IMG/VR virus record: IMGVR_UViG_3300020194_001110
Span: 1-34,065 of that record
Strand: one strand, 5' to 3'
DNA length: 34,065 bases
From: a virus
Both the position numbers and the translations under genes were made by a program. Positions 16,360-32,609 of this stretch are shown here, one piece after another. The stretch's first letter is position 1. The number at the start of each line of letters is the position of its first letter. The notes beneath the pieces were generated by a model. That model saw only the letters and a program-made list of their open reading frames with translations, made no database searches and was not told the origin of the DNA.

Positions 16360-16384
16360 GTTTGATCCTCTAATAATATATGCA

Positions 16385-16400
16385 TATAAATATATTTATG
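16385..16400. promoter_or_regulatory. divergent double late promoter, near-palindromic
   Basis: On the plus strand TATAAATA occupies 16385-16392, a full match to the T4 late consensus. On the minus strand CATAAATA occupies 16400-16393, directly abutting it. The 16-base unit TATAAATATATTTATG is a palindrome except at its outermost bases. The plus arm ends five bases before the ATG at 16398 (predicted start at the ATG). The minus arm lies about 34 nt before the GTG at 16359 and has a leader with AGAGGA. Confidence 0.75.
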
Positions 16401-17534
16401 GTCAGCAAAACTTTTTGTTCAGTGTTATGGAATCACCAGATGGTAGACGGCACTGGTAGAGTAAAACCCTGTTGTAGATTCTTAGAGGACCATCGTCCTA
16501 AAGATCATACACTGGATAATCATAGTATTCAAGATATATTTGACAGCGACTTTCAAAACGATCTTCGCAAGCGTATACTGGCTGGAGAAAGATTAGAAGG
16601 CTGTACACGGTGTTATGAAGAAGAAGATAATAACAAAAAAAGTTTACGTATGCGTCTTAATGAACATCCAAAAGTTGGAGCTCATACAGTAGATACAGAA
16701 AAATATAAATTAGAATATTTAGAACTTAGTCTTAGTAATGATTGTAATCTTATGTGCAGAATGTGTGATAGTAGATATAGTTTTAAATTATTCGATGAAG
16801 AAAAAGAATATCACGGTAAAACTTATTCTAAAACAAAACATACAAAAGCAAACCTAGATAGTATATACCCTCATTTAAAAGATATGAAGTATATTAAATT
16901 TACTGGCGGAGAACCATTAATTATTCCTGATCATTGGACATTATTAGAGTATGCTGTTGAAAAAGGTTATGCAAAAAATATAAGGTTAAATTATAGTACT
17001 AATTGTACTGTTTTTCCTAAAAAGAAAATTGTAGACATATGGAAAGAATTTGATCATATAGAATTAGCTGTAAGTTTAGATAGTATTGTGAAAGAAGAAA
17101 ATGTATATCAACGACATTTAACTAAACACGAGCAAGCACTTACTAATATAGAAAAATATGTAGAAGTAGCAGATCAAATTGGTATGACTGTTGTTGCAAG
17201 ACCTACTATAACAATTTATAATGCATATCATTTACCTGAAACGCTAGAATGGTTAGAGGAAAGAAATATACAACTAAATCCTACTCATTTAACTTATCCT
17301 TTATATTTAAGTTTAACTGTGTTACCTAAATCACAAAAACAAATAATTGAAAACAAATTTTCTAACTATAATTATAAAAATAAAAAAATAAAAGATTTAT
17401 GTAATTATATTATTACATATATGAATAGCGAAGACAAATCTAATTTATTAGACAAATTCAAATCACATACAGAATTTTGGGATAAATCAAGATCACAAAA
17501 TTTTGCTACCGCTTGTCCGTATTATTCTTTTTGA
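16398..17534 (+). CDS. radical SAM protein with N-terminal twitch/SPASM-like cysteine domain
   Basis: This 378-residue protein is the only plus-strand member of the seven-paralog group. The N-terminal domain has C7, C25-C26, C69 and C72 (GRVKPCCRF, then LEGCTRCYEEE), the cysteine spacing of a SPASM domain but placed before the core. The radical SAM cluster is C116-x3-C120-x2-C123 (SNDCNLMCRMC), followed by FTGGEPLII. A longer in-frame start at 16380 would contain the promoter, so 16398 is preferred; no Shine-Dalgarno sequence is present. It is expected to modify a peptide or protein. Its end overlaps the convergent SDR-like gene by 13 nt. Confidence 0.9.
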   Translation: MVSKTFCSVLWNHQMVDGTGRVKPCCRFLEDHRPKDHTLDNHSIQDIFDSDFQNDLRKRILAGERLEGCTRCYEEEDNNKKSLRMRLNEHPKVGAHTVDTEKYKLEYLELSLSNDCNLMCRMCDSRYSFKLFDEEKEYHGKTYSKTKHTKANLDSIYPHLKDMKYIKFTGGEPLIIPDHWTLLEYAVEKGYAKNIRLNYSTNCTVFPKKKIVDIWKEFDHIELAVSLDSIVKEENVYQRHLTKHEQALTNIEKYVEVADQIGMTVVARPTITIYNAYHLPETLEWLEERNIQLNPTHLTYPLYLSLTVLPKSQKQIIENKFSNYNYKNKKIKDLCNYIITYMNSEDKSNLLDKFKSHTEFWDKSRSQNFATACPYYSF

Positions 17535-18076
17535 ATTCTGTCTAAACACAATTCACTGATATTAACATTATGAGGTTGTTCTATTAGCCATTTGATAATT
17601 CCTGCAACATAATCGGTATTTAATTTTAGTGTATCAGGCATCTTATCATCTTGTCTAGGAGTATGCATATTGCCAGGAGCAATGTATGTTATCTTAAAAT
17701 CTGTCGGAGTGTCACTACTTACAGCTTGGCTAAGTTGTCTCATATATGCTCTAAGAGCTTTTTTCTCAACAGGATAAATCCATTTTGTTCCTTTTACTGG
17801 TGTATCAGCACTTGAGCCTAGTGCTATTAGATAACCTTTATGGTTAGCATTAACCCATTCTTTAGCAATAGCTTCTGCAAGAAGAACCTGACTAAAATCT
17901 CCTAAAGCACTACATAAAATTACTATTTCATGATCAAGTGATTTTTTTGCTACTTGTTCTCTTATATCGCGTTTTCCTAAATTATATCCCGATGTTCTAC
18001 TATAATATTCAGCAGAAGGATAAAGTTTTGCAATACTATTTGCTAATCCATATGTTTTATTTCCTATTACAAGCAT
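17522..18076 (-). CDS. short-chain dehydrogenase/reductase-like protein
   Basis: The 184-residue protein has an N-terminal strand and turn MLVIGNKTYGLANSIAKL in place of the usual TGxxxGxG loop, a central strand IVILCSALGD, a serine strand GYLIALGSS (S88/S89) and the Y-x3-K motif YPVEK (Y101, K105) followed by the active-site helix. TYIAPGNMHTP matches the PG motif after strand 6. It is shorter than typical SDRs (~250 aa). NAD(P)-dependent oxidation or reduction of a hydroxyl/ketone is the expected activity. It is the last gene of the long minus-strand run and overlaps the upstream gene by 10 nt. Confidence 0.72.
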   Translation of the reverse strand: MLVIGNKTYGLANSIAKLYPSAEYYSRTSGYNLGKRDIREQVAKKSLDHEIVILCSALGDFSQVLLAEAIAKEWVNANHKGYLIALGSSADTPVKGTKWIYPVEKKALRAYMRQLSQAVSSDTPTDFKITYIAPGNMHTPRQDDKMPDTLKLNTDYVAGIIKWLIEQPHNVNISELCLDRIQKE

Positions 18077-19224
18077 TCGTTAAACATCTCCATTAACTCT
18101 GGTAAAACTTTCCGAAAATCATTATTTCTAATTTTATCACCTCGATTTAAATTTGTTCTACATGCCTGCAATCTATCTAAATTAGTTTCTTTACTGTAAA
18201 TGTATTTTCTAATACCATTAGCTTCGGGTATGTGCTTTAGTTTTTCCAAAGCAATGTCTTTCCATTTATCAGGCATAATTGTAATGTTAAAATATTCTGG
18301 TCCAAAAAGTATATTAATAAAACTATAATCATAATTATTTTTTTTGCAAAACTCTACAAGTTCATCTAAATAGAATATATTTAAAATACTTATAGTTGGA
18401 GCGAAACGCATTTTCCAGGTAGGACATTTTTCTGTAAAAAGTTTAATATTTTTTTGAATTTGATTCCAATCTGAAGGATACCTAATATATTCAGCTCGTG
18501 TACCTATTGCATCAATACTCGGTAGCATTAATCCTTTCGGAAAATGACTTAACAAATCAATGAACTTAGGATTATATGTTTGGAAATTACTGTTAAATTC
18601 TAATACAACAGTTTCATTATATCCTTCATCTATCAATCTTTGTAAAAATTTTAACGCACCTTTTACAATACTAGGTTCGCCACCGGTAAAATATATTCTT
18701 GAAGTTTTATCAACACAGTCAAATAATTTATTAATTTCTTTATCAGGGTATGGAGTTGTTAAATTAAGTTCCTTTACACCGTTAAAAATTATTTCCATAT
18801 GTCTAAGATGTTCATCTGTATGTTTTTTTAATTCATCAAAAATTAAACTACTGCTTTTAGGATTACAAGATAAGCATCCTAAATTACATTTGTTACTAAG
18901 CCTAAGATCAACTAAATCATACTTAATTGATTTTAAGTGGTTTAAATCTAGTTCTTGTTTATACTTGCTTTTATAATTTGCTATTTCTCTCAAACGTTTG
19001 CTTTGTCCATTACGTTCTTCATTTTTTTCGCAATCTATACAACCTTTAGGCCAAACACCTGTTAAAAAATCTTGTTCTAATTTTTTGTACATTTCACTTG
19101 ATTTATAATCACTTAAAGAACCACGGAAGCTATCAGTTTGTCTAAATCTACAACAAGGACGATATCCACCACTTGGATCAGTTGCTATACCTGTATATAA
19201 CAATGGACAAAATGTATCACTCAT
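18067..19224 (-). CDS. radical SAM protein with N-terminal twitch/SPASM-like cysteine domain
   Basis: Of 385 residues, the N-terminal domain has C6, C24-C25 (GGYRPCCRF), C62 and C65 (KGCIDCEKNEE). The core cluster is C113-x3-C117-x2-C120 in SNKCNLGCLSC, followed by PKSSS and later FTGGEPS. Downstream it shares IRYPSDW and a FNITIMPDKW segment with paralogs. The start overlaps the next upstream stop as ATGA. It is closest in N-terminal pattern to the plus-strand protein at 16398 (both begin FC...PCCRF), suggesting a recent duplication or paired role. Confidence 0.9.
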   Translation of the reverse strand: MSDTFCPLLYTGIATDPSGGYRPCCRFRQTDSFRGSLSDYKSSEMYKKLEQDFLTGVWPKGCIDCEKNEERNGQSKRLREIANYKSKYKQELDLNHLKSIKYDLVDLRLSNKCNLGCLSCNPKSSSLIFDELKKHTDEHLRHMEIIFNGVKELNLTTPYPDKEINKLFDCVDKTSRIYFTGGEPSIVKGALKFLQRLIDEGYNETVVLEFNSNFQTYNPKFIDLLSHFPKGLMLPSIDAIGTRAEYIRYPSDWNQIQKNIKLFTEKCPTWKMRFAPTISILNIFYLDELVEFCKKNNYDYSFINILFGPEYFNITIMPDKWKDIALEKLKHIPEANGIRKYIYSKETNLDRLQACRTNLNRGDKIRNNDFRKVLPELMEMFNECL

Positions 19225-20279
19225 AATTGCTCTCGCTTTGTATTTTTACCGTATCCGCTACTAAATTCAAATTTGTTTCCGCAGGTTCTACCACAAGTAT
19301 ATATCCTCTTATATTTGTCATCTTGAGAATTCCAGGATTTATCTAAATATCTTGTAAAAAATTCGTGGTTAAGAACTTCCCAACCATACTTACGCATGTC
19401 GTTAAAATCATTTCCATATAATTTAAAAAAATTATCAAAACTCTTTCTTTGTGGATTATTAGGACCAAAATATGCAGGTGCCCCCATCCAAGTACACGGC
19501 CAAAGTTTCATCTCCATATCAATAAACACACTTTGTTCTTGTTTATATTTGCACACAATAGGAGTTTGTTCAATATAATCTTCAAAGCTCTTGTAAGTTT
19601 GTTGTATTTCCTGCATGTCTTTTTGATTATGATTATCTTGTTTATCTTCTACTACATTACCTTTTTTAGTTGCAATTTCTTTTTGTTGCTGTTCTGCAAA
19701 TCTTCCAGTATATTTTGCATTAAACTGGCGGAACCCCATATCTTTTGCTATACGTCTTGCTTCGTCAATTTGATGATAGTTATGTTCAAATTCAATAAAA
19801 TACCAACGAGCATTACCGCCAGCATCTATAAATGCTTTTGCGTTTTCCATTATTTTTTTAAAATTACTGTTTATTCTGTACAGGTGATTTGTATCTTCTA
19901 ATCCATCTATACTAAAATTGACAGTAATACGACTACTTTTTTGTGCTAGATCTCTCCACCATTCTTTTGATCTTGCACTACCGTTGACAGCCATTTTAAA
20001 TTCTTTAACGCCCTTACTTAAACTATAATCTATGCTATCATCTAATGTAGGACTTGCAATACTATCACCAAAGTTTCCGCAATGGAATAATTTAATTGAG
20101 TCGGGCTCAAACGGTTCTAGTATAATTTTATAATCGTCTACTGTTGTATCACTTATTGGCATGTAAGGATTTAATTCTGTTTGACTACCATGAAATCTTG
20201 CACATTGAGGACATGCTAGTTGGCATCTACTAGTATGATCCATTTGAATAGTTTTTATATCATTAATATTTAGAAACAT
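19221..20279 (-). CDS. radical SAM protein, CGNxGD type, C-terminal cysteines
   Basis: The 352-residue protein places the cluster motif at its N-terminus, C19-x3-C23-x2-C26 in SRCQLACPQC. The expected GGEP is replaced by FHCGNFGDSIASP. It shares the segments IDGLEDTNHLYR, AKAFIDAGGNA and FEHNYHQ with the proteins at 26026 and 27592. C-terminal cysteines (PIVCKYKQ, LWPCTWMG, YTCGRTCGNKF) suggest an auxiliary cluster domain. A Lys/Gln-rich low-complexity segment sits near residues 197-225. The start overlaps the upstream gene by 17 nt. Confidence 0.88.
   Translation of the reverse strand: MFLNINDIKTIQMDHTSRCQLACPQCARFHGSQTELNPYMPISDTTVDDYKIILEPFEPDSIKLFHCGNFGDSIASPTLDDSIDYSLSKGVKEFKMAVNGSARSKEWWRDLAQKSSRITVNFSIDGLEDTNHLYRINSNFKKIMENAKAFIDAGGNARWYFIEFEHNYHQIDEARRIAKDMGFRQFNAKYTGRFAEQQQKEIATKKGNVVEDKQDNHNQKDMQEIQQTYKSFEDYIEQTPIVCKYKQEQSVFIDMEMKLWPCTWMGAPAYFGPNNPQRKSFDNFFKLYGNDFNDMRKYGWEVLNHEFFTRYLDKSWNSQDDKYKRIYTCGRTCGNKFEFSSGYGKNTKREQL
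19816..19832. repeat. 17-bp direct repeat, copy 1 (in paralogous radical SAM gene)
   Basis: CCGCCAGCATCTATAAA is identical to 26576-26592. It encodes the F-I-D-A-G-G core shared by the CGNxGD-type radical SAM proteins, and near-identical sequence continues for about 20 more bases. It reflects gene duplication or conservation and could be a site for recombination. Confidence 0.6.
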
Positions 20280-21318
20280 CTATATTGTCCCAATCCATTC
20301 CACGATGTTTATTCCAAAACTGTTTATAATTTTCATGTAGCTCATAATGTTCTTTTAATGGCTTCTTGAATTTCCAACCTTCAGTGTAAGGGTTACTTTG
20401 TGCAATTTTTATATAATTTTTCTTTCCTAACAAAAAAGGTGATAAGTATTTTTCTCTAGCATAATCAACTTGGAAATTTTCTATTCCTATGTTTTTCCAA
20501 TAATTAATTGATTGGGGTAGTATAAGAAAATTAAATACAGATGCTGTAAACGCTATCTGAACATTGACATTATCCATTTGTGATAATTTTTGTAAATTAG
20601 ATGTAATAGTAGAAAAGTTAGTACCTCTAATATATTCATATATTTCAAATATACCATCAACACTTGCTGTAATATATAAACGTTTAAATTTAGACAAAAA
20701 TTCTTGATTTATAATAGTACAATTACTTGTAATACTTAATTCAACATTAGGATTTATGTCAGATAATTTATTTAAAAAATACTGTGCTTTTTTATCGTAC
20801 AAAGGTTCACCTCCTTTAATTACGATACTTTCTAATTTTTTTCCAACTTTATCTAATATCGTATCAATTTGGGCATATGTCATTGTAGTGTTTTTTACTA
20901 ATTTTTTTCCTGTACCTCTTTTTATATCGTCAGGCATTGTTTCAACAACTTTATTCCATTTACTACTAAAGTCTGGTCTACACATTACACAATCTAAGTT
21001 ACATGTGTTACCAAAGGAAATATCTAATCTTTTTATATGATTAGAACTACTTGACGATATTAATCTATCACCTCTTGTTCTCATGCTTCTGCTTTGTTGA
21101 TTTTCTTTTGTTTTACAGATAATACAAGCAGGATGATCTAATATCCTGTTTTCAATGCTTGCTTTTCTAATATCTAATATTTTTGGATTTGTAAAAAACT
21201 GATCAACTGATTCAAACGGCGAAGTCCAATTATCATCAGACCATATAGAACAACAAGGCGATACAGTCTGTTGAGGAGATATGTAAAATCCATTTTCAGC
21301 AAATCTACATGTAGACAT
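20263..21318 (-). CDS. radical SAM protein with N-terminal twitch/SPASM-like cysteine domain
   Basis: This 351-residue member is the shortest of its group. N-terminal cysteines are C4, C22-C23 (VSPCCSIW), C65 and C68 (PACIICKTKE). The core is C106-x3-C110-x2-C113 (NTCNLDCVMC) followed by RPDFSSKW, then IKGGEPLYD. The segment SVDGIFEIYEYIRG matches the S-I/V-D...Y-I-R pattern of its paralogs. The start codon overlaps the upstream stop by one base (TAATG). No ribosome site is needed if translation is coupled. Confidence 0.9.
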   Translation of the reverse strand: MSTCRFAENGFYISPQQTVSPCCSIWSDDNWTSPFESVDQFFTNPKILDIRKASIENRILDHPACIICKTKENQQSRSMRTRGDRLISSSSSNHIKRLDISFGNTCNLDCVMCRPDFSSKWNKVVETMPDDIKRGTGKKLVKNTTMTYAQIDTILDKVGKKLESIVIKGGEPLYDKKAQYFLNKLSDINPNVELSITSNCTIINQEFLSKFKRLYITASVDGIFEIYEYIRGTNFSTITSNLQKLSQMDNVNVQIAFTASVFNFLILPQSINYWKNIGIENFQVDYAREKYLSPFLLGKKNYIKIAQSNPYTEGWKFKKPLKEHYELHENYKQFWNKHRGMDWDNIDVSKY

Positions 21319-22697
21319 TATAAGTCTTCCTGTGGTTCTGTATCCTTTAACAACTCGTAAAGTTCAGGAATAGATTCTTCAATACTGTGACCACGAATTT
21401 TATCTAATTTTCTAGTAGCTTTCCAAAACATAGGCAACGCTTCGCTAAAATCTTTAGCATACATATAATCCACGTATTGATCTAATAAGCCTACTGCATC
21501 TCTTCGACTAGCTTCTTTACGTTCTTTAGTAAAATCACTTTCGTCGATAATTTTTAATAGTCGAGGTTTATAGTCTTCATACTTTTGTTTAATGTGATCC
21601 TTTGCCCAGGCAGGTAACATACGTATATTGTAAAACTTTGGACCGTGTAATGGATGTGGTGTAATAATAGGGCGCCACTCGTCGTCATTTACACGCGGTA
21701 TCTTGTTTAACAATATCCATTCCATAAATTCCGGAAAGTGTAATACATTAAATATGTTGATAGTTGCCGCAATCCATACTTTAAAATTACCTTGAGCCTT
21801 GCTTACTTTTAATAAATTTTCGTGTATTTTATCAAATCTACTTGGCGGACGCATATAGTATTGTAAGTCACCTACTCCGTCAATACTTGCACCTAAATTT
21901 ACCTGTTTAAAATGCTTCCAAATATCCCAAGCACGTTGTGGTATATTTGTCATGTTAGTATTATATTCTACAATAATATTTTTTGCACAATCTTGATCAA
22001 CGCATTTTTGTAAAAATTCATAATGCCTATCAATCATTAACGGCTCACCACCTACTATATACAACTTGCGTATCTGATCAATATTATTGTCCATTTGTAC
22101 CCAGTAGTGATCACTTTCATGCCAATCATATAAATTTGTTTCAGGTTCGTATTTTCCTTTGGCATTTTTTATAAGTTTAACTTTACCATGACTGTCTTTA
22201 TAACTATCACCCCATAGTTTAACCTGATCTTCGTACCACATGCTACTATCAGTAGGACCACACATTCTACATTTTAAATTACATAAGTTACCAAAACGCA
22301 CATCATAAAAACTACAATTTATTTCATCGTCTTTAATAGTTCCGTCAGGTTCTGTTTTAGACAATAAATCTTCCCAGTTAAATTCTCCACGCTCAATCCA
22401 AATTTTATTTTCGTAATCAATACGGGCATTCATACCCGATTCCATTTCTGTTTGACAACGAACACATTCAGGATGCCATTTACCTTCCATCATATACTTG
22501 CGTATTTCTTTTGACAATTCACTGTTTCGTACTTTTTTAAGATCAGCTGTACGAGCATTGTACTCTTTTCCATCTTCGTCTCTTAGTATGCCCCCTGTTG
22601 GACCGTGCTGTGCTTGACAACACACACGTATGTCTCCATTTGCTCTAAGACTTTGACTCATCCATGGAACAGGGCATAATGTTTCTAATTTATTCAT
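21318..22697 (-). CDS. radical SAM protein with N-terminal twitch/SPASM-like cysteine domain
   Basis: In this 459-residue protein the N-terminal domain reads C8-PVPW, then GDIRVCCQ (C26-C27), then PECVRCQTE (C78, C81), which is the typical C-P-x-P-W...G-x-x-x-x-C-C...C-x-x-C layout of a SPASM domain. The core is C139-x3-C143-x2-C146 in GNLCNLKCRMC followed by GPTDSSMW, then IVGGEPLMID. IDGVGDLQYYMRPPSRF and YNIRMLP are shared with paralogs. The start overlaps the upstream radical SAM gene by 8 nt. Confidence 0.92.
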   Translation of the reverse strand: MNKLETLCPVPWMSQSLRANGDIRVCCQAQHGPTGGILRDEDGKEYNARTADLKKVRNSELSKEIRKYMMEGKWHPECVRCQTEMESGMNARIDYENKIWIERGEFNWEDLLSKTEPDGTIKDDEINCSFYDVRFGNLCNLKCRMCGPTDSSMWYEDQVKLWGDSYKDSHGKVKLIKNAKGKYEPETNLYDWHESDHYWVQMDNNIDQIRKLYIVGGEPLMIDRHYEFLQKCVDQDCAKNIIVEYNTNMTNIPQRAWDIWKHFKQVNLGASIDGVGDLQYYMRPPSRFDKIHENLLKVSKAQGNFKVWIAATINIFNVLHFPEFMEWILLNKIPRVNDDEWRPIITPHPLHGPKFYNIRMLPAWAKDHIKQKYEDYKPRLLKIIDESDFTKERKEASRRDAVGLLDQYVDYMYAKDFSEALPMFWKATRKLDKIRGHSIEESIPELYELLKDTEPQEDL

Positions 22698-24009
22698 TCA
22701 AATACTCCAAGTGTGGGAATGTTTTCCAGTAATCTACATCTCGTAATTCGTTCAATTTAAGATAATATTCCTTTGCTTTTTTGTTTAGATCATTATCTAT
22801 TCTTGTTTTTGCTGATAATGCTTTTATTAAACCTTGTATTGTTTTTGTTTCTCTACGTTTGTGTTTGCTAATATTACATAACCAACTTTTTTTTATAAAC
22901 TTTTCAAGATCAGTAATTTCTTTTTGTCTATATTCTAAAGGTACAAGCTCATGACGCATCCATTCTTTACCACGTACACTTGTAAATCCTAAATGAAATC
23001 TTTCATTATTAGTACGATTACACATATTATCAAAATATTCTAGCATAGGTACTAGTCCTACGCAATTAAGAGCTTGCAAACAAGTTTGTGTTACCATTTC
23101 CCATTTATCATGTAAATTGTTTGAATTTTCAATACTAGTTATAACACTATCCCAATTTGTATGATAACGTATTAATTCATCTTTTTCTTGTCCAGCATCA
23201 ATACTAAAACGCAATAATCCACCTTTAAAATGATTTAATAAATCTACTATTTCATCTGTTATCAATGTTGCATTAGTGCTTATATCTAAACTAATATTTT
23301 TTGCATAATCTGTTTTAGCAATACTCCAAATAAAATCAATGCTGTGCCTATCTGCAAATACTTCTCCACCTCTAAATTCCATGTACAATACATGTTCAAG
23401 ATTTGTCATTATTTGTTCTTTAAAAAATTTGCTTTGACTTAAATATTCTTCACCTGAACGTTTTGCAATATCTAAACTACCTTGCATTTGGTTTGTTATT
23501 TTATCGCCCCACTTGGAGTATTCTTTGTACATCATACTACTAAGATTAGGCGAACACATCACACAACTTAAATTACATTTGGTACTTAACCGCACTTCCC
23601 ACCATTGTGGCATAACATCAACATATCCATTTGCTTCGTAATACTTTTGCAGATGAGGCTTCACACGTTCTAAAAATCTTTTATTCTTACCAGTGCGTTT
23701 ACTTCCAAATCCACTATTTTCCATCCTAAAACAAAAATCACAATTAGATATACGTTCTCCGTTAAGCATTTTCATACGGAAGTTACGCATAAAAGGTCCA
23801 TTCCATAAATCTTCTATCTTATCTTTACTTAGGTTGTATACATCTGTATTGCTTGAATAGTTGTCTGAATTTATTTCGTCAAGAGTCATTTCTTTTGGAA
23901 TGCCAAAGTCAATACCTTCAATACTACAACAAACTCTAGCATCTCCTTTTCCCCTAGTGTTCAGTTGTACAAACGGTACAATACAAAAATTATCTTCGTT
24001 TACTTTCAT
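22690..24009 (-). CDS. radical SAM protein with N-terminal twitch/SPASM-like cysteine domain, GGEV variant
   Basis: I chose the ATG at 24009, which overlaps the upstream stop as ATGA; an in-frame ATG at 24045 would add 12 residues inside that gene. The 439-residue product has C9, C27-C28 (DARVCCSI), C90 and C93 (SNCDFCFRMEN). The core is C145-x3-C149-x2-C152 in STKCNLSCVMC followed by SPNLSSMM. The SAM-binding motif is FRGGEVFAD, with valine for the usual proline. IDAGQEKDELIRYHTNW is the paralog-wide conserved segment. Confidence 0.88.
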   Translation of the reverse strand: MKVNEDNFCIVPFVQLNTRGKGDARVCCSIEGIDFGIPKEMTLDEINSDNYSSNTDVYNLSKDKIEDLWNGPFMRNFRMKMLNGERISNCDFCFRMENSGFGSKRTGKNKRFLERVKPHLQKYYEANGYVDVMPQWWEVRLSTKCNLSCVMCSPNLSSMMYKEYSKWGDKITNQMQGSLDIAKRSGEEYLSQSKFFKEQIMTNLEHVLYMEFRGGEVFADRHSIDFIWSIAKTDYAKNISLDISTNATLITDEIVDLLNHFKGGLLRFSIDAGQEKDELIRYHTNWDSVITSIENSNNLHDKWEMVTQTCLQALNCVGLVPMLEYFDNMCNRTNNERFHLGFTSVRGKEWMRHELVPLEYRQKEITDLEKFIKKSWLCNISKHKRRETKTIQGLIKALSAKTRIDNDLNKKAKEYYLKLNELRDVDYWKTFPHLEYLNE

Positions 24010-24596
24010 AACAGAACCTTTTGGTTTATGTAATTTGCTAACCATTTGTTACCTTTTAAATTAAAGTGATCATCAACTATATAGTCATTAAAATTACTAC
24101 ACTCTTTTTCTATACAATCTATTTTTTTATATTTTTTCCTCTCAGGCTGATAAAAAAAGAAACAATAATCAGATATTTTATTAATTTTATCTATTAATGT
24201 ATAATAATCATTTAGTATTCTATCATCACCTTGTTTTAACCAATCTTTGTAAGGATCTATTCCTACCGATTCTGTTCTAGTAGCTGTCCATCTGTGTAAA
24301 TTGTTATGTACTTGGTTTGAGTCTAATGTATACAAATTTCTAGTTTGTTTTTTTAAATTAATTGGTTTTAATTGATATGTTAATCTAAAAGGTTTAGTAA
24401 ACTGAAAAATTGTTATATCACAATCATTTTTGTATTTTTGAAATTGCTTGTATGACCATTCTAAACTAGTAGCGCCATAACTATAATTTTTTATTATTAC
24501 AGATCTATTTAAAACAGAAAGTTCATAAGGCCAATTATCTTTAAAAGATTCTATGCCTCTAGACCAACTACATCCAAAAATTCCTATAGTTATCAT
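24006..24596 (-). CDS. SGNH/GDSL hydrolase-like protein
   Basis: The 196-residue protein starts with a strand and nucleophile motif IGIFGCSWSRG, where S10 would be the catalytic serine of the GDSL-like block. YSYGATSLEWS resembles the glycine-containing block II, and VDDHFNLKGNKWLA carries the D-x-H dyad of block V near the C-terminus. SGNH enzymes remove acyl groups from sugars or lipids. It sits between two radical SAM genes with ATGA overlaps at both ends. No signal peptide is seen, so it should act in the cytoplasm. Confidence 0.7.
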   Translation of the reverse strand: MITIGIFGCSWSRGIESFKDNWPYELSVLNRSVIIKNYSYGATSLEWSYKQFQKYKNDCDITIFQFTKPFRLTYQLKPINLKKQTRNLYTLDSNQVHNNLHRWTATRTESVGIDPYKDWLKQGDDRILNDYYTLIDKINKISDYCFFFYQPERKKYKKIDCIEKECSNFNDYIVDDHFNLKGNKWLANYINQKVLL

Positions 24597-26002
24597 ACTA
24601 TATCCTTTAGTATAGGAAATACCTTAGTGAATTTTTCAGTCCAGCCTCTGCGTTCGTTTACTAAATTTAAGTATTCTTTTGTTTCTGGAAGCCTAGCACT
24701 CCAGTCTTCTGAATTCATAAACTTAATAATACCTTTGAAGCGTTTGATGCCATAGGGTGCATTTAGCCATTGTTCTTTAGTAATACCTGCTTCGTTAACA
24801 CCAGTAAAAAGTTTCCAATTTTCTTCCATCCAAGGATAAAATTCATTTTCATATTTGTCTGTAATTTCCTTTTTAATATGTTCAGGCAGTACTTTTACAT
24901 TAAGTTGTGGTGGCCAATATGCAAAGTGCATGTTTATTCCGCCAGCACCTAATGGCCATTTATTTAATTTTTTAAAGTTTTGTTGTACTTTCCATTTTAC
25001 GAACTCAGGCAAGTATGCAACATTAAGTGCCATAATAGTAGTTGCTGTAGTAACTTCTACTTGTGGTGCTGTATTATCTAACATATGAAACACACGTTCT
25101 TGATGTTCCCAAGTGCTTGGATAGCGTATATAATCATTTTGTTCGCCGTAAGCATCAATACTGTAGTGAAATCTCACACGTTTAAAGTGACTCCATAATT
25201 CTGGTAAATCTTTGCGCCATTCTACAGCATTACTATTATAACGTAATTCCATATTCTTAGCATGGCCACGTTTAATACATTCTTCTAACAATTCATAGTG
25301 TTCATCAATAATCAAACTTTCGCCGCCAGCAAAATATAACTGATACATATGTGGAATTTGATCCATTAAATCTGCCCAAAAACGAGGATTATTTTTATGC
25401 CAATTATAACTTGCTCCGTCATTTCGACCTTTGTTATGCCACTGGCTAGTATTAGCAAGTTTTTCATTTTTTATTTTAGGTGTAATAGCCTTCCAGTCTT
25501 TGATCCAACCTGTTGAGTCGTGCGGGGAACACATCACGCAAGCAAGTTGACACTTACTACCTAAACGCAAATCAATATATCTGATCTTAGGAGGTATACT
25601 TCCATCTTCTTTTGTTTCTGCAACTAGTTCATCAATATTAAACCTATTACCCCAATATTCTGTTTCCCAGTTACGTTTACTTAAATGTCCCTGTTCTTCT
25701 TCTTTGTAACACTTTAAACAACTTGCAGGTTTTTCTCCCCGCAACATCATTTTACGAACGTTACGCATGTAGCCACTATTCCATGCTTCTTCTAAAGTGG
25801 TATGATTAAAATTTGCAGGAACACCGTCATCATTTTTTACAATGCCGACTTCTCCTCCGCCAATTTTCTTGTTTGAATCTGGGTCTTGTACACTACTTGC
25901 ATTTGATGTACAACACGTTCTCATTTTTCCGTCTGGGCGACTGCTTAAATGCATCCACGGTAATGCACAAAATGTTTCTGATGGTAATGTTTTATTGCTC
26001 AT
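24593..26002 (-). CDS. radical SAM protein with N-terminal twitch/SPASM-like cysteine domain, GGES variant
   Basis: This 469-residue protein is the longest of its group. The N-terminal domain has C12 (FCALPWMHL), C30-C31 (GKMRTCCTS), C95 and C98 (ASCLKCYKEEE). The core is C151-x3-C155-x2-C158 in GSKCQLACVMC followed by SPHDSTGW. The SAM-binding motif reads FAGGESLII. SIDAYGEQNDYIRYPSTW and LNVKVLPEHIK are conserved with paralogs. A late-type promoter lies directly before its ATG, and no Shine-Dalgarno sequence is visible, so it likely begins a leaderless transcript. Confidence 0.92.
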   Translation of the reverse strand: MSNKTLPSETFCALPWMHLSSRPDGKMRTCCTSNASSVQDPDSNKKIGGGEVGIVKNDDGVPANFNHTTLEEAWNSGYMRNVRKMMLRGEKPASCLKCYKEEEQGHLSKRNWETEYWGNRFNIDELVAETKEDGSIPPKIRYIDLRLGSKCQLACVMCSPHDSTGWIKDWKAITPKIKNEKLANTSQWHNKGRNDGASYNWHKNNPRFWADLMDQIPHMYQLYFAGGESLIIDEHYELLEECIKRGHAKNMELRYNSNAVEWRKDLPELWSHFKRVRFHYSIDAYGEQNDYIRYPSTWEHQERVFHMLDNTAPQVEVTTATTIMALNVAYLPEFVKWKVQQNFKKLNKWPLGAGGINMHFAYWPPQLNVKVLPEHIKKEITDKYENEFYPWMEENWKLFTGVNEAGITKEQWLNAPYGIKRFKGIIKFMNSEDWSARLPETKEYLNLVNERRGWTEKFTKVFPILKDIV

Positions 26003-26006
26003 AATG

Positions 26007-26014
26007 TATTTATA
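26007..26014 (-). promoter_or_regulatory. T4-late consensus promoter within the minus-strand run
   Basis: The plus strand reads TATTTATA, giving a perfect TATAAATA on the minus strand. It lies in the 23-nt gap between two radical SAM genes and ends four bases before the ATG at 26002, so the predicted start of transcription falls on the start codon. It would drive the genes from 26002 leftwards to 17522. Confidence 0.7.
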
Positions 26015-26025
26015 ATGTATGTAGT

Positions 26026-27024
26026 TTACTCAAAAATTTCTACCTTATGTAAATTATCACGCAACACTCCACAAGTTTTTTTGCATTTTTTTAAAGGTTC
26101 ACTACTCCATTTTTCTTCTACTGTTTCAAAAAATAAACTTTTTGTTGCTTGTGAAAGTTTTGTATTAGAAATATTTGGTATTCCTATTTGATTTTGTAAT
26201 TCTAAAATTTCTTTATTTAAAGAACGATCTGTGTTATAATGATATCCTGTATTACAGCATGGATAAATTCTACCGTCAGCAGCAATATAGACACTGCTTT
26301 CTTTCTTAGCATAACAACTAATCTCGCCTGTCCATTCTTTAGTTATAGAAATTCTGTTTGGATTTTTAGCTGTATATTGTTTGTCGTCTATCTTTGCTTC
26401 ATATAATCTATAAACTTCATTATTATTTTTATCATATACAGGTAGATATTCTTTTTCAAACCTATTTGTTTTTATCTTTTCAAATTTTTTGAACCCTAAT
26501 GATCTAGCAAACTTTGCTGCTTCTTCGACCTGATGTTTGTTGTGTTCAAAAATTATAAATTTCCAAGTAGCATTTCCGCCAGCATCTATAAACGCTTTTG
26601 CATTTTCTATAAGTTTATTCCATTGGATATTTCTTCGGTATAAATGATTAGTATCTTCTAATCCATCAATACCAAAAACAACATGTAATTTATCTTTTCC
26701 TGTTTCAGCTAATAACTTCCAATAATCTGGTGTTCTAGCTCCTCCGTTAGTCATCATTAGTATAGGCTTATTATACTTTTGTAACCATTTTTCTATGACT
26801 AAATGCAAACTAGGATGTACACACGGATCGCCATAATTTCCGCATAGTGTTAACTTTTCACTTGCTAAGTCAAAATTGTCAAACCAATTTATATCAAAAT
26901 CAGTCTTTATTAAACTTGGATGATCTATATCACCATTTAAATTTCTCATACACATAGGACAAGCAGCATTACATTTAGTTGTTAGTTCGACATGTATGTG
27001 AGATAACGGTAATTTATAAAACAT
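26026..27024 (-). CDS. radical SAM protein, CGNxGD type, C-terminal cysteines
   Basis: The ATG at 27024 is chosen because the resulting start, MFYKLPLSHIHVELTTKC, aligns with both paralogs; a longer start at 27066 lies inside the upstream gene. The 332-residue product has C18-x3-C22-x2-C25 (TTKCNAACPMC) and LCGNYGDPCVHP in place of GGEP. IDGLEDTNHLYR, AFIDAGGNA and FEHNKHQ are shared with the proteins at 19221 and 27592. Near the C-terminus, EISCYAKK, IYPCCNTGY and CKKTCGV provide candidate auxiliary-cluster ligands. Confidence 0.88.
   Translation of the reverse strand: MFYKLPLSHIHVELTTKCNAACPMCMRNLNGDIDHPSLIKTDFDINWFDNFDLASEKLTLCGNYGDPCVHPSLHLVIEKWLQKYNKPILMMTNGGARTPDYWKLLAETGKDKLHVVFGIDGLEDTNHLYRRNIQWNKLIENAKAFIDAGGNATWKFIIFEHNKHQVEEAAKFARSLGFKKFEKIKTNRFEKEYLPVYDKNNNEVYRLYEAKIDDKQYTAKNPNRISITKEWTGEISCYAKKESSVYIAADGRIYPCCNTGYHYNTDRSLNKEILELQNQIGIPNISNTKLSQATKSLFFETVEEKWSSEPLKKCKKTCGVLRDNLHKVEIFE
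26576..26592. repeat. 17-bp direct repeat, copy 2 (in paralogous radical SAM gene)
   Basis: Identical to 19816-19832 and in the equivalent codons of the paralog. A diverged third version occurs near 28194-28210 in the protein at 27592. Confidence 0.6.
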
Positions 27025-27589
27025 CACCGAACCAGTCTGGAGGAAGTATATTAAGCATTTGTTCATATGTATATTGAAATGTTACGCTTAATAGCACACG
27101 AGGCTTGTCACTGTTATTAGCAAAACCATGAGGGGTTTTAGTGCTGAATAAAACTGGTTTTTCTAAATTATAATAATCAAACTTGCCTTCCTCTTCATAA
27201 AAAAATCCAGTAGGGCCTCTAAGATTATCTACTGTGTGTCCTTCTTTGTAATTTAAATGTTCTTTTCTTTTGTAAATTTTTAACAAGTGTGTTTTACCTG
27301 TCAAAAAATAACTATTTTCATGATCCATTTCAATAGGAATATTCATAGCACTCCATCTACCTCTATCCAAGTGTGGACCATTTGCTGTACGTGGAGGGTT
27401 ACTATAGTACTCTAACGTACTCACTTCTTTTGGAAATTCTTTAAAAATAGGGTGTTTCGAATCTAAACAATGATGATACATCTTGCCTGGGTTTGCTTCT
27501 TTAACTTCTCTCCATTGTCCTTGGTTCCAAATTTCTTTTAATTCTTGTAATAAATCATCCGGAAAATTTTCAATTATTGTAAACGTCAT
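27014..27589 (-). CDS. 2OG-Fe(II) oxygenase-like hydroxylase
   Basis: The 191-residue protein has the H-x-D motif in GPHLDRGRWSAMNIPI (H73, D75) and a distal histidine and arginine in KTPHGFANNSDKPRVLLSV (H154, R164), the expected jelly-roll metal and 2-oxoglutarate ligands. The order and spacing fit small phage-type 2OG-Fe oxygenases. AAGGAG lies six bases before the ATG. It sits between two CGNxGD-type radical SAM genes and overlaps the downstream one by 11 nt. Hydroxylation of a peptide or sugar product of the neighbours is plausible but unproven. Confidence 0.75.
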   Translation of the reverse strand: MTFTIIENFPDDLLQELKEIWNQGQWREVKEANPGKMYHHCLDSKHPIFKEFPKEVSTLEYYSNPPRTANGPHLDRGRWSAMNIPIEMDHENSYFLTGKTHLLKIYKRKEHLNYKEGHTVDNLRGPTGFFYEEEGKFDYYNLEKPVLFSTKTPHGFANNSDKPRVLLSVTFQYTYEQMLNILPPDWFGDVL

Positions 27590-27591
27590 TC

Positions 27592-28668
27592 TTACTCCTT
27601 AAACTGTGCTGAAAACGGATCAAATTCAACTCCGCATTTCATACTACAAACTTTCAGTTTGCCATTTTCGCACCCTTGTATATTCCAACTATTTTGTATC
27701 TTTCCAAAGATACCACTATCAAACACACGTTTTATACCGTGCTTGGCATTTATAGAATCCTTATCTCCAATAAAGTCCCATATCTGTTCAACTTTAGGAT
27801 CTTTATGCCACCATTTGTACATACGACCGGCGGTCCAACAGCAAGGTAAAACTAAACCTTCTGCTGTAACAAAAATCTCGCCTTTGTCTTTTACTTTACA
27901 TTTGATAGGAACTGTGTCATAGTATGCATCCATACTACCATATTTTTTTAAAAGTGTATCTTGCTTGTTTAATTCTTTATTTTGATATTTTGCGTCAGGC
28001 TTTTTAAGCTCTGTTGAATCTTTGCCTTTGCGGTCTTTGGCTTGATGCTTTTCTTTTTTGTTTGTGTTTGCATCTACAAATCTCCCTGTTTTCTTTTTCA
28101 TGAACTTTTCAACTCCCCACTCTTTAGCAAGATCTTCTGCTTCTTCTACTTGATGTTGATTGTGTTCAAAAATTAAAAAGTCCCAACGTGCTCTACCGCC
28201 GGCACCTATAAACGCCCGCATGTTACGTTCTACATTTTTCCATACAACGTTTTGTCTATAGATGTGATTAGTATCTGCTAATCCGTCTACTGAAAATATT
28301 ACTGCACCTTTACGGCCAAATACTTCTGCAAGTTTTTGCCACCATTCTACAGGTTTTGCTCCTCCATTAGTGTTCATACTTAACCACATATTAGGATTTG
28401 CCCAACGAAAATATTCAAATATTTCTAATGTATCCTGTGCTACAATTGGATCACCTAAATTTCCGCACATATACATTGTGTCTAATTGTTTTATAAAATC
28501 TATAGGAAATATATCTTCACAATCTTTAAGTGATAATTCATCTAAATTGATATGAGGATTAATGCCTTCACCATTCATATTTCGATCACACATAGGACAT
28601 GCCGCTTGGCAATTTTGTGTTACTTCTAAATGTACATGTTTTATGTTTTCAAGCGAGTACATTATCAT
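27592..28668 (-). CDS. radical SAM protein, CGNxGD type, C-terminal cysteines
   Basis: The start is either ATG 28668 or ATG 28662; the frame is open to 28707 but that part lies inside the upstream gene. From 28668 the 358-residue protein has C20-x3-C24-x2-C27 (TQNCQAACPMC) and MCGNLGDPIVAQ in place of GGEP. VDGLADTNHIYR and FEHNQHQ align with the two paralogs. C-terminal cysteines appear in PIKCKVKDKG, VLPCCWTAG, and KVCSMKCGVEF. A Lys/Asp-rich segment near residues 205-245 parallels the low-complexity insert of the protein at 19221. Confidence 0.88.
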   Translation of the reverse strand: MIMYSLENIKHVHLEVTQNCQAACPMCDRNMNGEGINPHINLDELSLKDCEDIFPIDFIKQLDTMYMCGNLGDPIVAQDTLEIFEYFRWANPNMWLSMNTNGGAKPVEWWQKLAEVFGRKGAVIFSVDGLADTNHIYRQNVVWKNVERNMRAFIGAGGRARWDFLIFEHNQHQVEEAEDLAKEWGVEKFMKKKTGRFVDANTNKKEKHQAKDRKGKDSTELKKPDAKYQNKELNKQDTLLKKYGSMDAYYDTVPIKCKVKDKGEIFVTAEGLVLPCCWTAGRMYKWWHKDPKVEQIWDFIGDKDSINAKHGIKRVFDSGIFGKIQNSWNIQGCENGKLKVCSMKCGVEFDPFSAQFKE

Positions 28669-29578
28669 CTTTCCATTTTGGTATACGTAAATCAGGTATA
28701 CATGCACAAAAATCCGTTTGGCAAATTACTGGCTTTTCAGGAATACTATAATTATTTTCATATATGTTTCCTAATTTCATTTTTTTTGCTGTACTACACT
28801 GTGCAAGACTAATATCTCCGTTGTGCCATATTACAATTCTAGTTTTACCTAAGCCGCATTTCCATCCTTTAAATTGATGTTCATTATTACTAATAATCTT
28901 AAATCCATATCTGTATGGTTTAGGTTCTCCGTCTACAACTAAATGGGTAGGAATTGGTAGATCACCAAACTTGGATGTACTATGTTTATAATTTTTTATA
29001 AATTCTTTTTCTTCTTCTGTGTAATCTTGCGCTTTACCTGTATAATCTCTAATAGGTTTTATAAAAACACTACACTCTAAATTTTTAAATTTATCTGAAT
29101 ACTGTCTGACAATGTCAAAGTTTTTTCTATCTGCAAGTAACAAGATTGTTAATTGTACCTTCTGGTGTAATAATTCACCTACCTTATATATGTGTTCAAT
29201 GTCTGCAAATTCTAAATGTGTACTGATACAAACTCTTGCAATGTTACTACATTTATCTAATATTCTTTTCCACCAGTTTAACGTCCTTGATCCGTTTGTA
29301 GTTAATTGAACAAAATAGCTTGTATCTAATTCATTTAAAAAAGGGATTAGTCTAGGCCAAACTGTAGGTTCGCCGCCAGTTAAATTTAATAATTTAGGTC
29401 CTGGTTGAACCTCTTTATGGATATAATTAAAAAATTCTAATGCTTTATCATACTGAGGTTGTCCGGAAGATCCGCCGTATAAATCTTCTCTACAGTAACT
29501 ACACTTATAGTTACACACATTACTAACTACCCATTCAATATTCATTCCGTTTGGGTTATCAGGATATATACTATGCAT
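28649..29578 (-). CDS. radical SAM protein with SPASM-like C-terminus
   Basis: At 309 residues this is the smallest radical SAM protein here. The cluster is C22-x3-C26-x2-C29 in SNVCNYKCSYC, followed by LTGGEPTVWP. C-terminal cysteines lie in GWKCGLGKTR, ISLAQCSTAKK, ICQTDFCACIP. It closely resembles the proteins at 13518 and 15226 in order of motifs, including the terminal L-R-I-P-K-W-K-D-D (LKVPKIKDW and SKIPKVKNE in the other two). The start overlaps the preceding small gene by 8 nt. Confidence 0.9.
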   Translation of the reverse strand: MHSIYPDNPNGMNIEWVVSNVCNYKCSYCREDLYGGSSGQPQYDKALEFFNYIHKEVQPGPKLLNLTGGEPTVWPRLIPFLNELDTSYFVQLTTNGSRTLNWWKRILDKCSNIARVCISTHLEFADIEHIYKVGELLHQKVQLTILLLADRKNFDIVRQYSDKFKNLECSVFIKPIRDYTGKAQDYTEEEKEFIKNYKHSTSKFGDLPIPTHLVVDGEPKPYRYGFKIISNNEHQFKGWKCGLGKTRIVIWHNGDISLAQCSTAKKMKLGNIYENNYSIPEKPVICQTDFCACIPDLRIPKWKDDNVLA

Positions 29579-29795
29579 CTAATACCAACCTTATATTTTT
29601 TCCTGGTCCTACTTTACTTGGTAGGTCGCCGTATTCTTTTATATACCATTCAATAACAGATTTATACCAGTTATGACTATTATGATGTGCCTGTCTATTA
29701 AACTGGTATATGTTATTGTTAGTTGCTTGCATTGTACTGAGAGCTCTTGCACTTTCTTGCTGTAGTTGCCGTACTGTTAATTTACTTGTGTCCAA
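29571..29795 (-). CDS. small hypothetical protein (up to 74 aa), TTG start
   Basis: An in-frame stop lies immediately before the TTG at 29795, so this is the longest possible frame; an internal ATG at 29732 would give 53 residues. The product is rich in Q, N, H and Y (TMQATNNNIYQFNRQAHHNS, then HNWYKSVIEWYIKEYG) and ends GKNIRLVLDA. I recognise no family. It overlaps both neighbours, which supports translation. It is one of only two small unknown proteins in the long radical SAM run, making it a candidate accessory protein or modified substrate, but there is no direct sign of either. Confidence 0.5.
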   Translation of the reverse strand: MDTSKLTVRQLQQESARALSTMQATNNNIYQFNRQAHHNSHNWYKSVIEWYIKEYGDLPSKVGPGKNIRLVLDA

Positions 29796-30624
29796 TTATC
29801 ATAAACCTTTTGTATTCAGGCAACTCTAATTCGCCGCTGTATTTTATATTATTCATAGGTGCAGTCTTTTTAAATTCCTCTACATCACTAACACAATTAA
29901 CATGTTCTTCTATACTATAGTAATTATTACTTTGTAGCACTACTAGCTTACCGTCTGGAATTTTTGCATACCATTCTGCAAAATCTTCTATATGTTCACA
30001 ACTTGTATTAATAATTGTATCTGGAATATCTGTAATTGGGTAACTCATTCTATTATTTTTGTTTGACCAATACTGCCATGTGTGTTCGTTATAATCTATA
30101 TCCATAATATCTTGTGTTAAAGACTTAAACTGCCATTCATTTTTGAACCAGGGCTTGTTAAATACTTCTGCAATGTCTACACAAGTATCGTCAATGTCAA
30201 AAGATCTAACTTTATCTATGTTAATGTTACTTTCAAATAACATTGTAGCAAGTGTTGCATACCATCCTGCGCACAAAAATACAGTTCCTAAATCTATATT
30301 CAGTTTTTGCAATTCTTGTACTAACCATAATTTACTTTGTAATTGTCCTCTGCTAAAACAATCGTCCCATATTTTAGTTTCATTGACAAAGAAGTTTTTA
30401 AACGCTGCAACAAACTGTGTTTCTACATAGCTGTCTAATATAGGCCATAATTTCCAAGTGTTATCTTCCATAACTAATTTACGTAGGTCTTCTTTATTAT
30501 TATCGTTTACTAGTCGAAAAATACTACTTAAATCCTTATCAGTATATGCTCTACGCAAATCTGCTAAATTACTTTTAGTAGGATAAAGCAATTCAAATCT
30601 ATCTAACAATTCAAATGTTTGCAT
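29782..30624 (-). CDS. class I methyltransferase-like protein
   Basis: I chose the ATG at 30624, which has AAGGAG seven bases upstream; a TTG directly before it is less likely. The 280-residue protein has an N-terminal helical region, then a Rossmann-like pattern: strand LGTVFLCAGWYATLATMLF in place of the glycine-rich SAM loop, strand KVRSFDIDDTCVDIAE with an acidic residue suited to bind the SAM ribose, and strand TIINTSCEHI in the motif IV position. GKLVVLQSNNYY resembles a later strand. A SAM-dependent methyltransferase is the best guess; the substrate is unknown. Confidence 0.65.
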   Translation of the reverse strand: MQTFELLDRFELLYPTKSNLADLRRAYTDKDLSSIFRLVNDNNKEDLRKLVMEDNTWKLWPILDSYVETQFVAAFKNFFVNETKIWDDCFSRGQLQSKLWLVQELQKLNIDLGTVFLCAGWYATLATMLFESNINIDKVRSFDIDDTCVDIAEVFNKPWFKNEWQFKSLTQDIMDIDYNEHTWQYWSNKNNRMSYPITDIPDTIINTSCEHIEDFAEWYAKIPDGKLVVLQSNNYYSIEEHVNCVSDVEEFKKTAPMNNIKYSGELELPEYKRFMIIGHK

Positions 30625-31282
30625 CAAACTGCTCCTTTAACCATTTATAATTGTTTATCAACCGAAGATCAGACCCCCTAGAAAGGCCAAACTCCATACC
30701 AGCGGTAGCACCTCGAATCGCATATTCACCAAACTTTCTAGTGTGTCCCACGGTTGTCCAAGTTTTAAGTCTTGCATTTGTTTCCTCCTCATTTTGTCTA
30801 TCAATTATTTTACTTGCTAATTTTGCACATTCTCTAAATGCACTTCTCCACGTACTAAATTCATCTACATTAAACGCTGTGATATTACTTATAATAGGCA
30901 TAGGTATAAATTTACTACTTATGCTAGTAGTCATATCAGGTTTATTTACATCAACATTTATAGTTGCTGTTCTTGGAAAAAGTTTTACACCGCCATAACC
31001 ATATTCTAAATCATTTATAGGATTTTGGCTGCGCCATACATGCACAGCATCTCTATCTCTTCTTGGAGGAATATAGCTGAAATCAAAATCATCTTTGATG
31101 TCTGCATCTGCATCAACAAACCAAACCATTGGTGTAAGTGCTTTTTTTGCAGCAGCAATATGAGCTTGATGTATACCTTTTACTCCGTGTGTGCGTTTTG
31201 CATAAGGATACCTTGATAATAACTTTTTCCAGTTTTCATCAGCTTCAACTTCATCATAACTTATGAAAGCAATATCATACAT
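30611..31282 (-). CDS. glycosyltransferase-like protein with DxD motif, paralog A
   Basis: The start at ATG 31282 has GGAG nine bases upstream, whereas ATG 31288 has it too close; a frame open to 31363 lies inside the upstream gene. The 223-residue protein shares the N-terminal YDI-x-x-SYDE motif, H-G-V-x-G and the Y-G-x-G-G-x-K-x-x-P motif with the protein at 32606. WFVDADADI supplies a D-x-D-type metal/nucleotide-sugar site of GT-A transferases. I infer a glycosyltransferase or nucleotidyl-sugar-binding protein; no family is certain. Confidence 0.6.
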   Translation of the reverse strand: MYDIAFISYDEVEADENWKKLLSRYPYAKRTHGVKGIHQAHIAAAKKALTPMVWFVDADADIKDDFDFSYIPPRRDRDAVHVWRSQNPINDLEYGYGGVKLFPRTATINVDVNKPDMTTSISSKFIPMPIISNITAFNVDEFSTWRSAFRECAKLASKIIDRQNEEETNARLKTWTTVGHTRKFGEYAIRGATAGMEFGLSRGSDLRLINNYKWLKEQFDANI

Positions 31283-32609
31283 TAGCATGTGCTCCACACG
31301 TTTTATAAAAATCTTTAAATTCAGGAAAAACTTGTAAAAAGTTTTTTTCTCTTCTTTTATCATACTCGTTCACAAATTGCACAAATCTATATCTATCTAA
31401 TGTTACATTTTTTTTGTTTTCAAAATTAGATAAACAATCTTTGTAAATACGGTTTATTTTTAAAAATTCATAATCAGAAAATCTCTGCATTTCTTTTACA
31501 TAAATTATACAAGGTTTTAAATATTTTTCAATTAAATATGGAGTTGCAATATTAATATCTAAAAATTTTGGATGTCTGACATAAGCAAAGTCTATAAGAA
31601 CACGATCAGATTTATACTTTCTTTTTAAAATATTAATATATCTAAGATATCCAGCAAGTGTTGGTAAACTTAAAATATTAAAGGCACTCATTACAACAAC
31701 TTTAGATGTTAAATTACTTAAAAAATATTCTATATTTTTTTCAAATAAATTCCAGTTCATTCCATCTCTTGCATATTCTGCTTGTTCGCCGTAACTTTCT
31801 GCACTAGTAAATAATGTAAAACTTTTTACACTTTTTGTTTTTTCTAATTCTTTTATTAAAGAAATAAATTCTTTCCATATATTATTAGGAGGGCAAGCAT
31901 TAGTATTAATAGAAAAGTTGAGATTTGGTTGAGGGTTTTTGATTAAATGCTTTATAACCTTTTTTGTATGCTTGCTGAGTAAAGGTTCTCCTCCAGTTAT
32001 CCTAAATGTATGCATGTGTTTTACTGCCTCTGGAAACCATTTCCAAAATGCTTTAATATATGGATTTTCTTCTCGTTCTGGAATCAAAACTTCATTATGT
32101 TTTATAGTGTTATAATGAACTCCTTTTAGTTTATACGGGCCTTTTGATTTTATTTCTTCTGTCCACTTACTACTAAATGGTGGGCCGCAATATGTACATT
32201 TAAAATTACATACATTTGAAAAACTTATTTCAACATATCTAGGATATATGTCTTCATCCCAAGAATTCTGTAGTATTTTATCTTTATCTATTTGGCTCCA
32301 GGGTCTAGAACTTTTTAAGACTCTATCGCTATATTCTGAAGTATTATCTTCAATTCTCCAACAATAATCACACTCCTCTGGACGTTGGCCAGATAACATT
32401 TCTTTACGCATTTGTTTTTTCTGCGAAGTATTGTGTAAAGCATTAGGATTATTTTCTAATTCATTTAGTGGAATTTTATGTGCGCCTACATGGTGACAAC
32501 TATGTGTAATACCTGCACCGAGGTGTGTAGTTACTTGTGTCCATTTTGCTAAACAAAAACCACAACCTACATTATCTAAGTCTTTTTTTACTGTTTTAAA
32601 ATCATTCAT
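31275..32609 (-). CDS. radical SAM protein with divergent N-terminal twitch/SPASM-like domain
   Basis: The 444-residue protein has N-terminal cysteines C16, C19 (GCGFC), C38, C80 and C83 (PEECDYCWRIE). Where the other members have a C-C pair it has C-H-H, so its auxiliary cluster ligands may differ. The core is C134-x3-C138-x2-C141 in SNVCNFKCTYC followed by GPPFSSKW, then ITGGEPLLS. ESYGEQAEYARDGMNW replaces the S-I-D...Y-I-R segment of the paralogs. It is flanked by the two glycosyltransferase-like paralogs and overlaps the upstream one as ATGA. Confidence 0.88.
   Translation of the reverse strand: MNDFKTVKKDLDNVGCGFCLAKWTQVTTHLGAGITHSCHHVGAHKIPLNELENNPNALHNTSQKKQMRKEMLSGQRPEECDYCWRIEDNTSEYSDRVLKSSRPWSQIDKDKILQNSWDEDIYPRYVEISFSNVCNFKCTYCGPPFSSKWTEEIKSKGPYKLKGVHYNTIKHNEVLIPEREENPYIKAFWKWFPEAVKHMHTFRITGGEPLLSKHTKKVIKHLIKNPQPNLNFSINTNACPPNNIWKEFISLIKELEKTKSVKSFTLFTSAESYGEQAEYARDGMNWNLFEKNIEYFLSNLTSKVVVMSAFNILSLPTLAGYLRYINILKRKYKSDRVLIDFAYVRHPKFLDINIATPYLIEKYLKPCIIYVKEMQRFSDYEFLKINRIYKDCLSNFENKKNVTLDRYRFVQFVNEYDKRREKNFLQVFPEFKDFYKTCGAHANV

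Follow-up and report, generated by a model that had tools for sequence, protein, structure and literature searches.

The DNA analysed here (the window; 34,065 bases, the whole of IMG/VR virus record IMGVR_UViG_3300020194_001110) is a fragment of a marine T4-like phage encoding seven radical S-adenosylmethionine (SAM) proteins in which a twitch-type cysteine domain stands in front of the radical SAM core (N-twitch proteins; genes are named by their first coordinate). Judged by profile comparison, this front domain is clearly of the same kind as the C-terminal twitch of BtrN, the 2-deoxy-scyllo-inosamine dehydrogenase, and linking the two is new here. There is roughly an even chance that the seven are BtrN-type, twitch-first radical SAM enzymes that tailor the sugars of a virion or host-surface glycan.

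Results

All seven genes were uninterrupted open reading frames (ORFs). Their products passed NF033640 of NCBIfam ('twitch domain-containing radical SAM protein', N_Twi_rSAM; curated cut-off 170 bits) with 178.4-424.2 bits over model positions 1-4 to 354-398. The conserved core member, 24593 (24593..26002, minus strand, 469 amino acids (aa)), scored 424.2 bits, followed by 21318 (21318..22697, minus, 459 aa, 366.4 bits), 16398 (16398..17534, plus, 378 aa, 314.9 bits), 31275 (31275..32609, minus, 444 aa, 313.3 bits), 18067 (18067..19224, minus, 385 aa, 301.6 bits) and 22690 (22690..24045, minus, 451 aa, 273.8 bits); the most divergent copy, 20263 (20263..21318, minus, 351 aa), scored 178.4 bits. 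16398, the sole plus-strand copy, begins at the second ATG of an ORF at 16380-17534. The original prediction had placed these proteins in an N-terminal twitch annotation group without an established function; the scores bear out the placement, and the family name carries no function. Since NF033640 is a named family, the architecture itself is not new: the front-twitch order is recognised but functionally undescribed, and the seven share with the family both this order and a match along the full-length profile.

Alignment of the seven showed the predicted N-terminal cysteine domain and the predicted core motif CX3CX2C in every copy; the layout in 24593 is C-x18-C ... C-x2-C ... CX3CX2C. Invariant residues (24593 numbering) were C12, C31, C95, C98, C151, C155, C158, GGE at 226-228, N258, S281 and R293. 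Three other proposed motifs held in part. In G-x-x-x-x-C-C, the CC pair was present in six copies and replaced by SC in 31275, and 20263 lacked the G. P-x-x-S-S was exact in five of seven and altered in 24593 (PHDST) and 16398 (SRYSF). S-I-D...Y-I-R was exact only in 24593 and 18067, and elsewhere just S-x-D/E...R was conserved; this stretch aligned with SIDG...R in the ordinary core of SkfB and so is not special to the N-twitch family. The core profile PF04055 matched every copy; five scores exceeded the gathering threshold, and those of 18067 and 24593 fell short of it.

Sequence collections were scanned with single proteins, the seven paralogues being too divergent for alignment-based scans. 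Viral contigs yielded 186 stretches related to 24593, of which the best 80 (64-97% identity) were kept. Of 1076 radical SAM ORFs in the loci, 687 had the domain ahead of the core and 3 had it behind; the front domain fell within aa 1-118, and the core match began at aa 95-146. The viral loci supplied 435 distinct full-length relatives that keep the four front-domain cysteines, which argues that the pattern is not due to chance.

In a comparison of the front-domain profile with the PDB, the sole credible relative was the C-terminal twitch of BtrN (residues 165-237 of 4M7S and 185-257 of 4M7T); a separate search also gave this match, at E 9e-6. The four cluster cysteines of BtrN aligned with the four conserved ones, the cysteine of the GX4C hairpin being paired with the leading C of CC. 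The twitch is thus homologous and, at the level of sequence, has the same four cysteine ligands. In BtrN, these four cysteines fully ligate the cluster (PMC6231123). The domain order differs: the twitch follows the core in BtrN and precedes it in the seven proteins, away from its usual C-terminal place. The seven are also longer than BtrN, with an extra C-terminal region that is helical in the predicted model.

The Pfam SPASM profile matched the front domain of three of the seven (residues 12-105), including 22690 (aa 21-105) and 16398 (aa 13-79, with Radical_SAM at aa 117-265, counted from the upstream ATG at 16380), as well as the C-terminus of a further window protein, 26026; both orders thus occur side by side. 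The conventional placement in 26026 and the homology to a C-terminal twitch agree with the earlier statement that SPASM-type domains usually follow the core. A SPASM domain has the pattern CX9-15GX4C-gap-CX2CX5CX3C-gap-C and two clusters, of which the twitch is a truncated, one-cluster form (PMC6231123). The SPASM-like spacing that had been proposed applies to the four-cysteine part (CX9-15GX4C-gap-CX2C) and does not extend to the seven-cysteine pattern. A full SPASM domain was rejected, as no CX5CX3C-type cysteines lie between CX2C and the core motif; four cysteines instead of seven point to a twitch-like domain with one cluster. CX9-15GX4C was found in 392 of the 435 relatives. When these and the seven were aligned together (442 sequences), C12, C95 and C98 were conserved at 99-100%, and 441 sequences had a cysteine at C30 or C31.

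The AlphaFold model of 24593 (front domain aa 7-112 and core aa 138-343 by profile match) was confident (pLDDT 91.3, pTM 0.91). Its best PDB matches were the SPASM/twitch enzymes SkfB, CteB, SuiB, anSME and MoaA. TM-scores were low, as expected when a permuted order is aligned in sequence order. SkfB, CteB, SuiB and anSME share the core fold, CX3CX2C, GGE and S-x-D...R with the N-twitch proteins, whereas their auxiliary domain lies behind the core, often holds two clusters and in several is accompanied by an N-terminal RRE; in the N-twitch proteins Pfam found no RRE, and a single auxiliary cluster is predicted. MoaA, also a twitch-type enzyme, matched by profile and by fold. Its auxiliary cluster leaves a site open for GTP (PMC6231123), whereas the N-twitch proteins have four conserved cysteines. 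In a scan of the PADLOC defence library, which of the seven covered 24593, neither that protein nor 27592 had a match; three other radical SAM proteins gave weak matches to part of the core only, which does not make them viperins (pVip).

The window contains 14 radical SAM genes, 13 of them within about 13.5-32.6 kb and nearly all leftward. Islands of this kind, described here for the first time, occur widely among uncultured aquatic phages, and several of these phages have T4-type capsid genes. Island-bearing contigs reached 330 kb; of 14 large records tested, 8 carried the T4-type capsid gene gp23. In loci of 21.3 kb or more, the median number of radical SAM genes was nine, of which six were N-type. 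Relatives of 21318 were found in 29 loci of a viral scan.

A tree assigned the seven window copies to distinct subfamilies that have orthologues in other phages, likewise a new finding. 31275 had no close relative among the sampled rows of the tree, and a 70% orthologue exists. The ratio of nonsynonymous to synonymous substitution rates (dN/dS) against near orthologues was 0.035-0.17 for six of the seven (0.035 for 24593), so these six are maintained as proteins. 20263 is a gene recently exchanged between phages with a changed linker: its DNA was 97% identical to the copy in locus L089, and the changes were clustered in the linker. In the same pair of loci, the neighbouring gene 22690 was far more diverged at silent sites.

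Close relatives of the island genes were absent from phage isolates, among which 24593 gave three weak matches, 27592 one, and 30611, 13518 and sp74 (a small island protein described below) none. Four contigs from GTDB metagenome-assembled genomes (MAGs), L118 (NZHE01000012.1), L119, L120 and L121, were rejected as cellular hosts since they contain the entire phage island; they are probably phage contigs binned into MAGs. One of them and an IMG/VR record are both 46,940 bases long. A literature search that reached few subscription journals and no preprints found no paper on phage N-terminal twitch radical SAM proteins, nor NF033640 in multi-paralogue phage islands with sp74.

Across loci, one gene order recurred: a glycosyltransferase-like gene (30611 or 32606), 29782, sp74, 27592 and 24593. 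The hallmark of the island is sp74 (29571..29795, minus), a conserved helical protein of 74 aa that the original prediction did not include and that is new here. It was found in 265 viral stretches and was conserved over its whole length; of the 71 non-redundant loci whose flank was long enough, 68 had a 27592-type gene downstream, no more than five genes away. AlphaFold predicted a confident three-helix fold without a disordered core (pLDDT 90.7), which weakens the case for a classical disordered precursor. A fold search of BFVD returned no match, and profile matches in the PDB (designed repeat proteins and antibody light chains) were judged to be chance, so that sp74 has no known relative. 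One 413-aa ORF in another locus (L102:19119-20357, plus) ends C-terminally in an sp74-like segment.

Variable genes surrounded this core. They encoded carbamoyltransferase, UDP-glucose dehydrogenase, DegT aminotransferase, NAD epimerase, GFO_IDH oxidoreductase, cytidylyltransferase, 2-oxoglutarate (2OG) oxygenases, nitroreductases and B12-type radical SAM proteins. In one phage island, a 785-aa ORF (L119:2263-4617, plus) joined GFO_IDH_MocA to Radical_SAM beside carbamoyltransferase and epimerase genes. In some loci, genes resembling by eye those for a structural or fibre protein and for further glycosyltransferases were situated just upstream.

Bacterial carriers of N-twitch genes were rare: a sample of 299 genomes from the phylum of the starting MAG contained two more, and each of two further samples added one genome not seen before. 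In one bacterial genome, four N-twitch genes lay beside ABC-2 permease, RmlC, RmlD, WbsX and TylF-type genes. Wzt is the ATPase of an O-antigen exporter, and its C-terminal domain binds the polysaccharide. One of these four genes, in what is an O-antigen locus, encoded ABC_tran, Wzt_C, SPASM and Radical_SAM in a single open frame (L135:8582-11143, minus), and an ORF of another genome had the FkbM methyltransferase domain Methyltransf_21 fused ahead of SPASM and Radical_SAM (L227:8239-10485, plus). These rare fusions to Wzt or FkbM are new here and suggest the class of substrate. Two N-twitch ORFs (L135:4238-5959, minus; L136:9424-11199, minus) had a split core match with a gap of about 160 residues after CX3CX2C, an inserted segment.

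The remaining radical SAM genes of the window were of several kinds. 27592 (27592..28707, minus), part of the conserved island core, and 19221 (19221..20279, minus) encode core-first proteins by profile matches; 26026 (26026..27066, minus) has its ordinary C-terminal SPASM at aa 254-332. PF04055 identified the short protein 28649 (28649..29578, minus; 34.2 bits), 15226 (15226..16359, minus; 51 bits), 13518 (13518..14642, minus; 52.5 bits), which is conserved at a median identity of 85% in relatives, and 8952 (8952..10430, plus; 55.3 bits). The last, the only one outside the main leftward block, has a long N-terminal region and is likely of the B12-binding type.

Alignment and motifs read by eye gave the glycosyltransferase-like label to 32606 (32606..33523, minus; VDGDN) and to its paralogue 30611 (30611..31363, minus; VDADAD; 30% identity); profile searches failed to confirm it. 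29782 (29782..30627, minus), a conserved island gene that adjoins sp74 in most loci, appears methyltransferase-like by eye and had no Pfam match. 14673 (14673..15245, minus; PF00881) encodes a nitroreductase-family protein and 12223 (12223..12762, minus; PF05118) an Asp/Asn beta-hydroxylase-like dioxygenase. The left third of the window holds rightward phage genes for a 5'-3' exonuclease, an AAA ATPase and a DUF2201 metallopeptidase/VWA protein. PHROGs labels the last (4886-6208, plus) 'HNH endonuclease', and several phage records give 'homing endonuclease'; Pfam showed no sign of HNH.

Discussion

The case for sugar-tailoring enzymes starts from the front domain, which is homologous to the BtrN twitch and keeps four conserved cysteines, and from gene context. 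The SAM-cluster motif and the SAM-binding region are intact, and six of the seven copies are under purifying selection. BtrN oxidises an alcohol of an aminocyclitol (PMC9012708), and the electron is proposed to pass to its auxiliary cluster, which is fully ligated (PMC9012708, PMC6231123). The bacterial context is the strongest functional clue; together with the BtrN homology, the Wzt and FkbM associations favour sugar oxidation, or related tailoring, of surface glycans.

From this we infer the type of cluster, the electron transfer, the substrate and the location of the product. C12, C30 (or C31), C95 and C98 would hold one auxiliary [4Fe-4S] cluster near the active site, and the core cluster at C151/C155/C158 would split SAM. 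The resulting 5'-deoxyadenosyl radical would abstract a hydrogen atom from a sugar carbon, and the second electron would pass to the auxiliary cluster, as proposed for BtrN. The product could be a keto-sugar, or a sugar further oxidised, epimerised or eliminated. The paralogues, with the glycosyltransferase-like, nucleotide-sugar and other tailoring genes of the island, would assemble an unusual glycan that varies between phages and is carried by the virion or the host surface. sp74 may serve as an adaptor, or it may be a protein on which the core pair 27592/24593 acts. We hold this wider picture, a fast-diversifying radical SAM island of T4-like phages whose permuted BtrN-like dehydrogenases, core-first enzyme and sp74 build phage-specific virion or host-surface sugars, more tentatively than the assignment of the seven proteins.

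Several observations weigh against sugar tailoring. The nitroreductases, 2OG oxygenases, PP-loop protein and conserved small protein also fit peptide or small-molecule chemistry; 30611 and 32606 matched nothing in Pfam or the PDB, their label resting on motif reading; the cellular context comes from only four bacterial genomes; and the bacterial members stand among phage branches in the tree and are not close kin of the window copies.

Small conserved precursors typically adjoin the maturases of pyrroloquinoline quinone (PQQ) and mycofactocin, and sp74 lies directly before the conserved pair 27592/24593 in almost all loci. The pair might accordingly modify sp74 or a virion protein, for instance by cross-links, as PqqE and sactipeptide maturases do, and the solved relatives of the fold are mostly peptide maturases. 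We consider such maturation unlikely, though the best placed of the alternatives. sp74 is predicted to be a confident three-helix domain and is conserved along its full length, Pfam found no PqqD/RRE domain in the radical SAM proteins, and one small protein cannot account for dozens of diverged paralogues. Nor was sp74 seen beside the bacterial members, where it was never sought.

The homology to BtrN would also suit a diffusible, for instance aminocyclitol-like, small molecule as the island product instead of a polymer-bound glycan, and the amidinotransferase-like, carbamoyltransferase and DegT aminotransferase genes resemble aminoglycoside pathways. The amidinotransferase label is weak (PF02274, E 0.018, below cut-off), and the bacterial Wzt and FkbM fusions indicate surface glycans; we regard a free small molecule as improbable.

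Slightly less probable still is hypermodification of phage DNA bases or host tRNA, yielding a glycosylated or otherwise decorated base. T4-type phages put sugars on their DNA, some phage base hypermodifications involve radical SAM enzymes, and the islands repeatedly contain a QueC-like PP-loop protein. However, no base-modification marker was among the families in two top-25 lists for island genes, gene content varies strongly between phages, and the bacterial relatives are located in O-antigen genes. A front domain that lacks a cluster and acts merely as a structural or substrate-binding lid would account for the drift of the fourth cysteine between two neighbouring positions, but is very improbable given the near-complete conservation of all four cysteines.

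Under the sugar-tailoring reading, a family so far annotated without a function gains a testable hypothesis: a permuted BtrN-type auxiliary cluster acting on surface sugars. The bacterial Wzt/FkbM fusions and the conserved sp74-27592-24593 core offer concrete first targets. If the reading is true, the phage-specific sugar island represents viral glycan chemistry not described so far, and radical chemistry would be a common and variable tool of phage glycan modification, with a bearing on host recognition and enzyme discovery.

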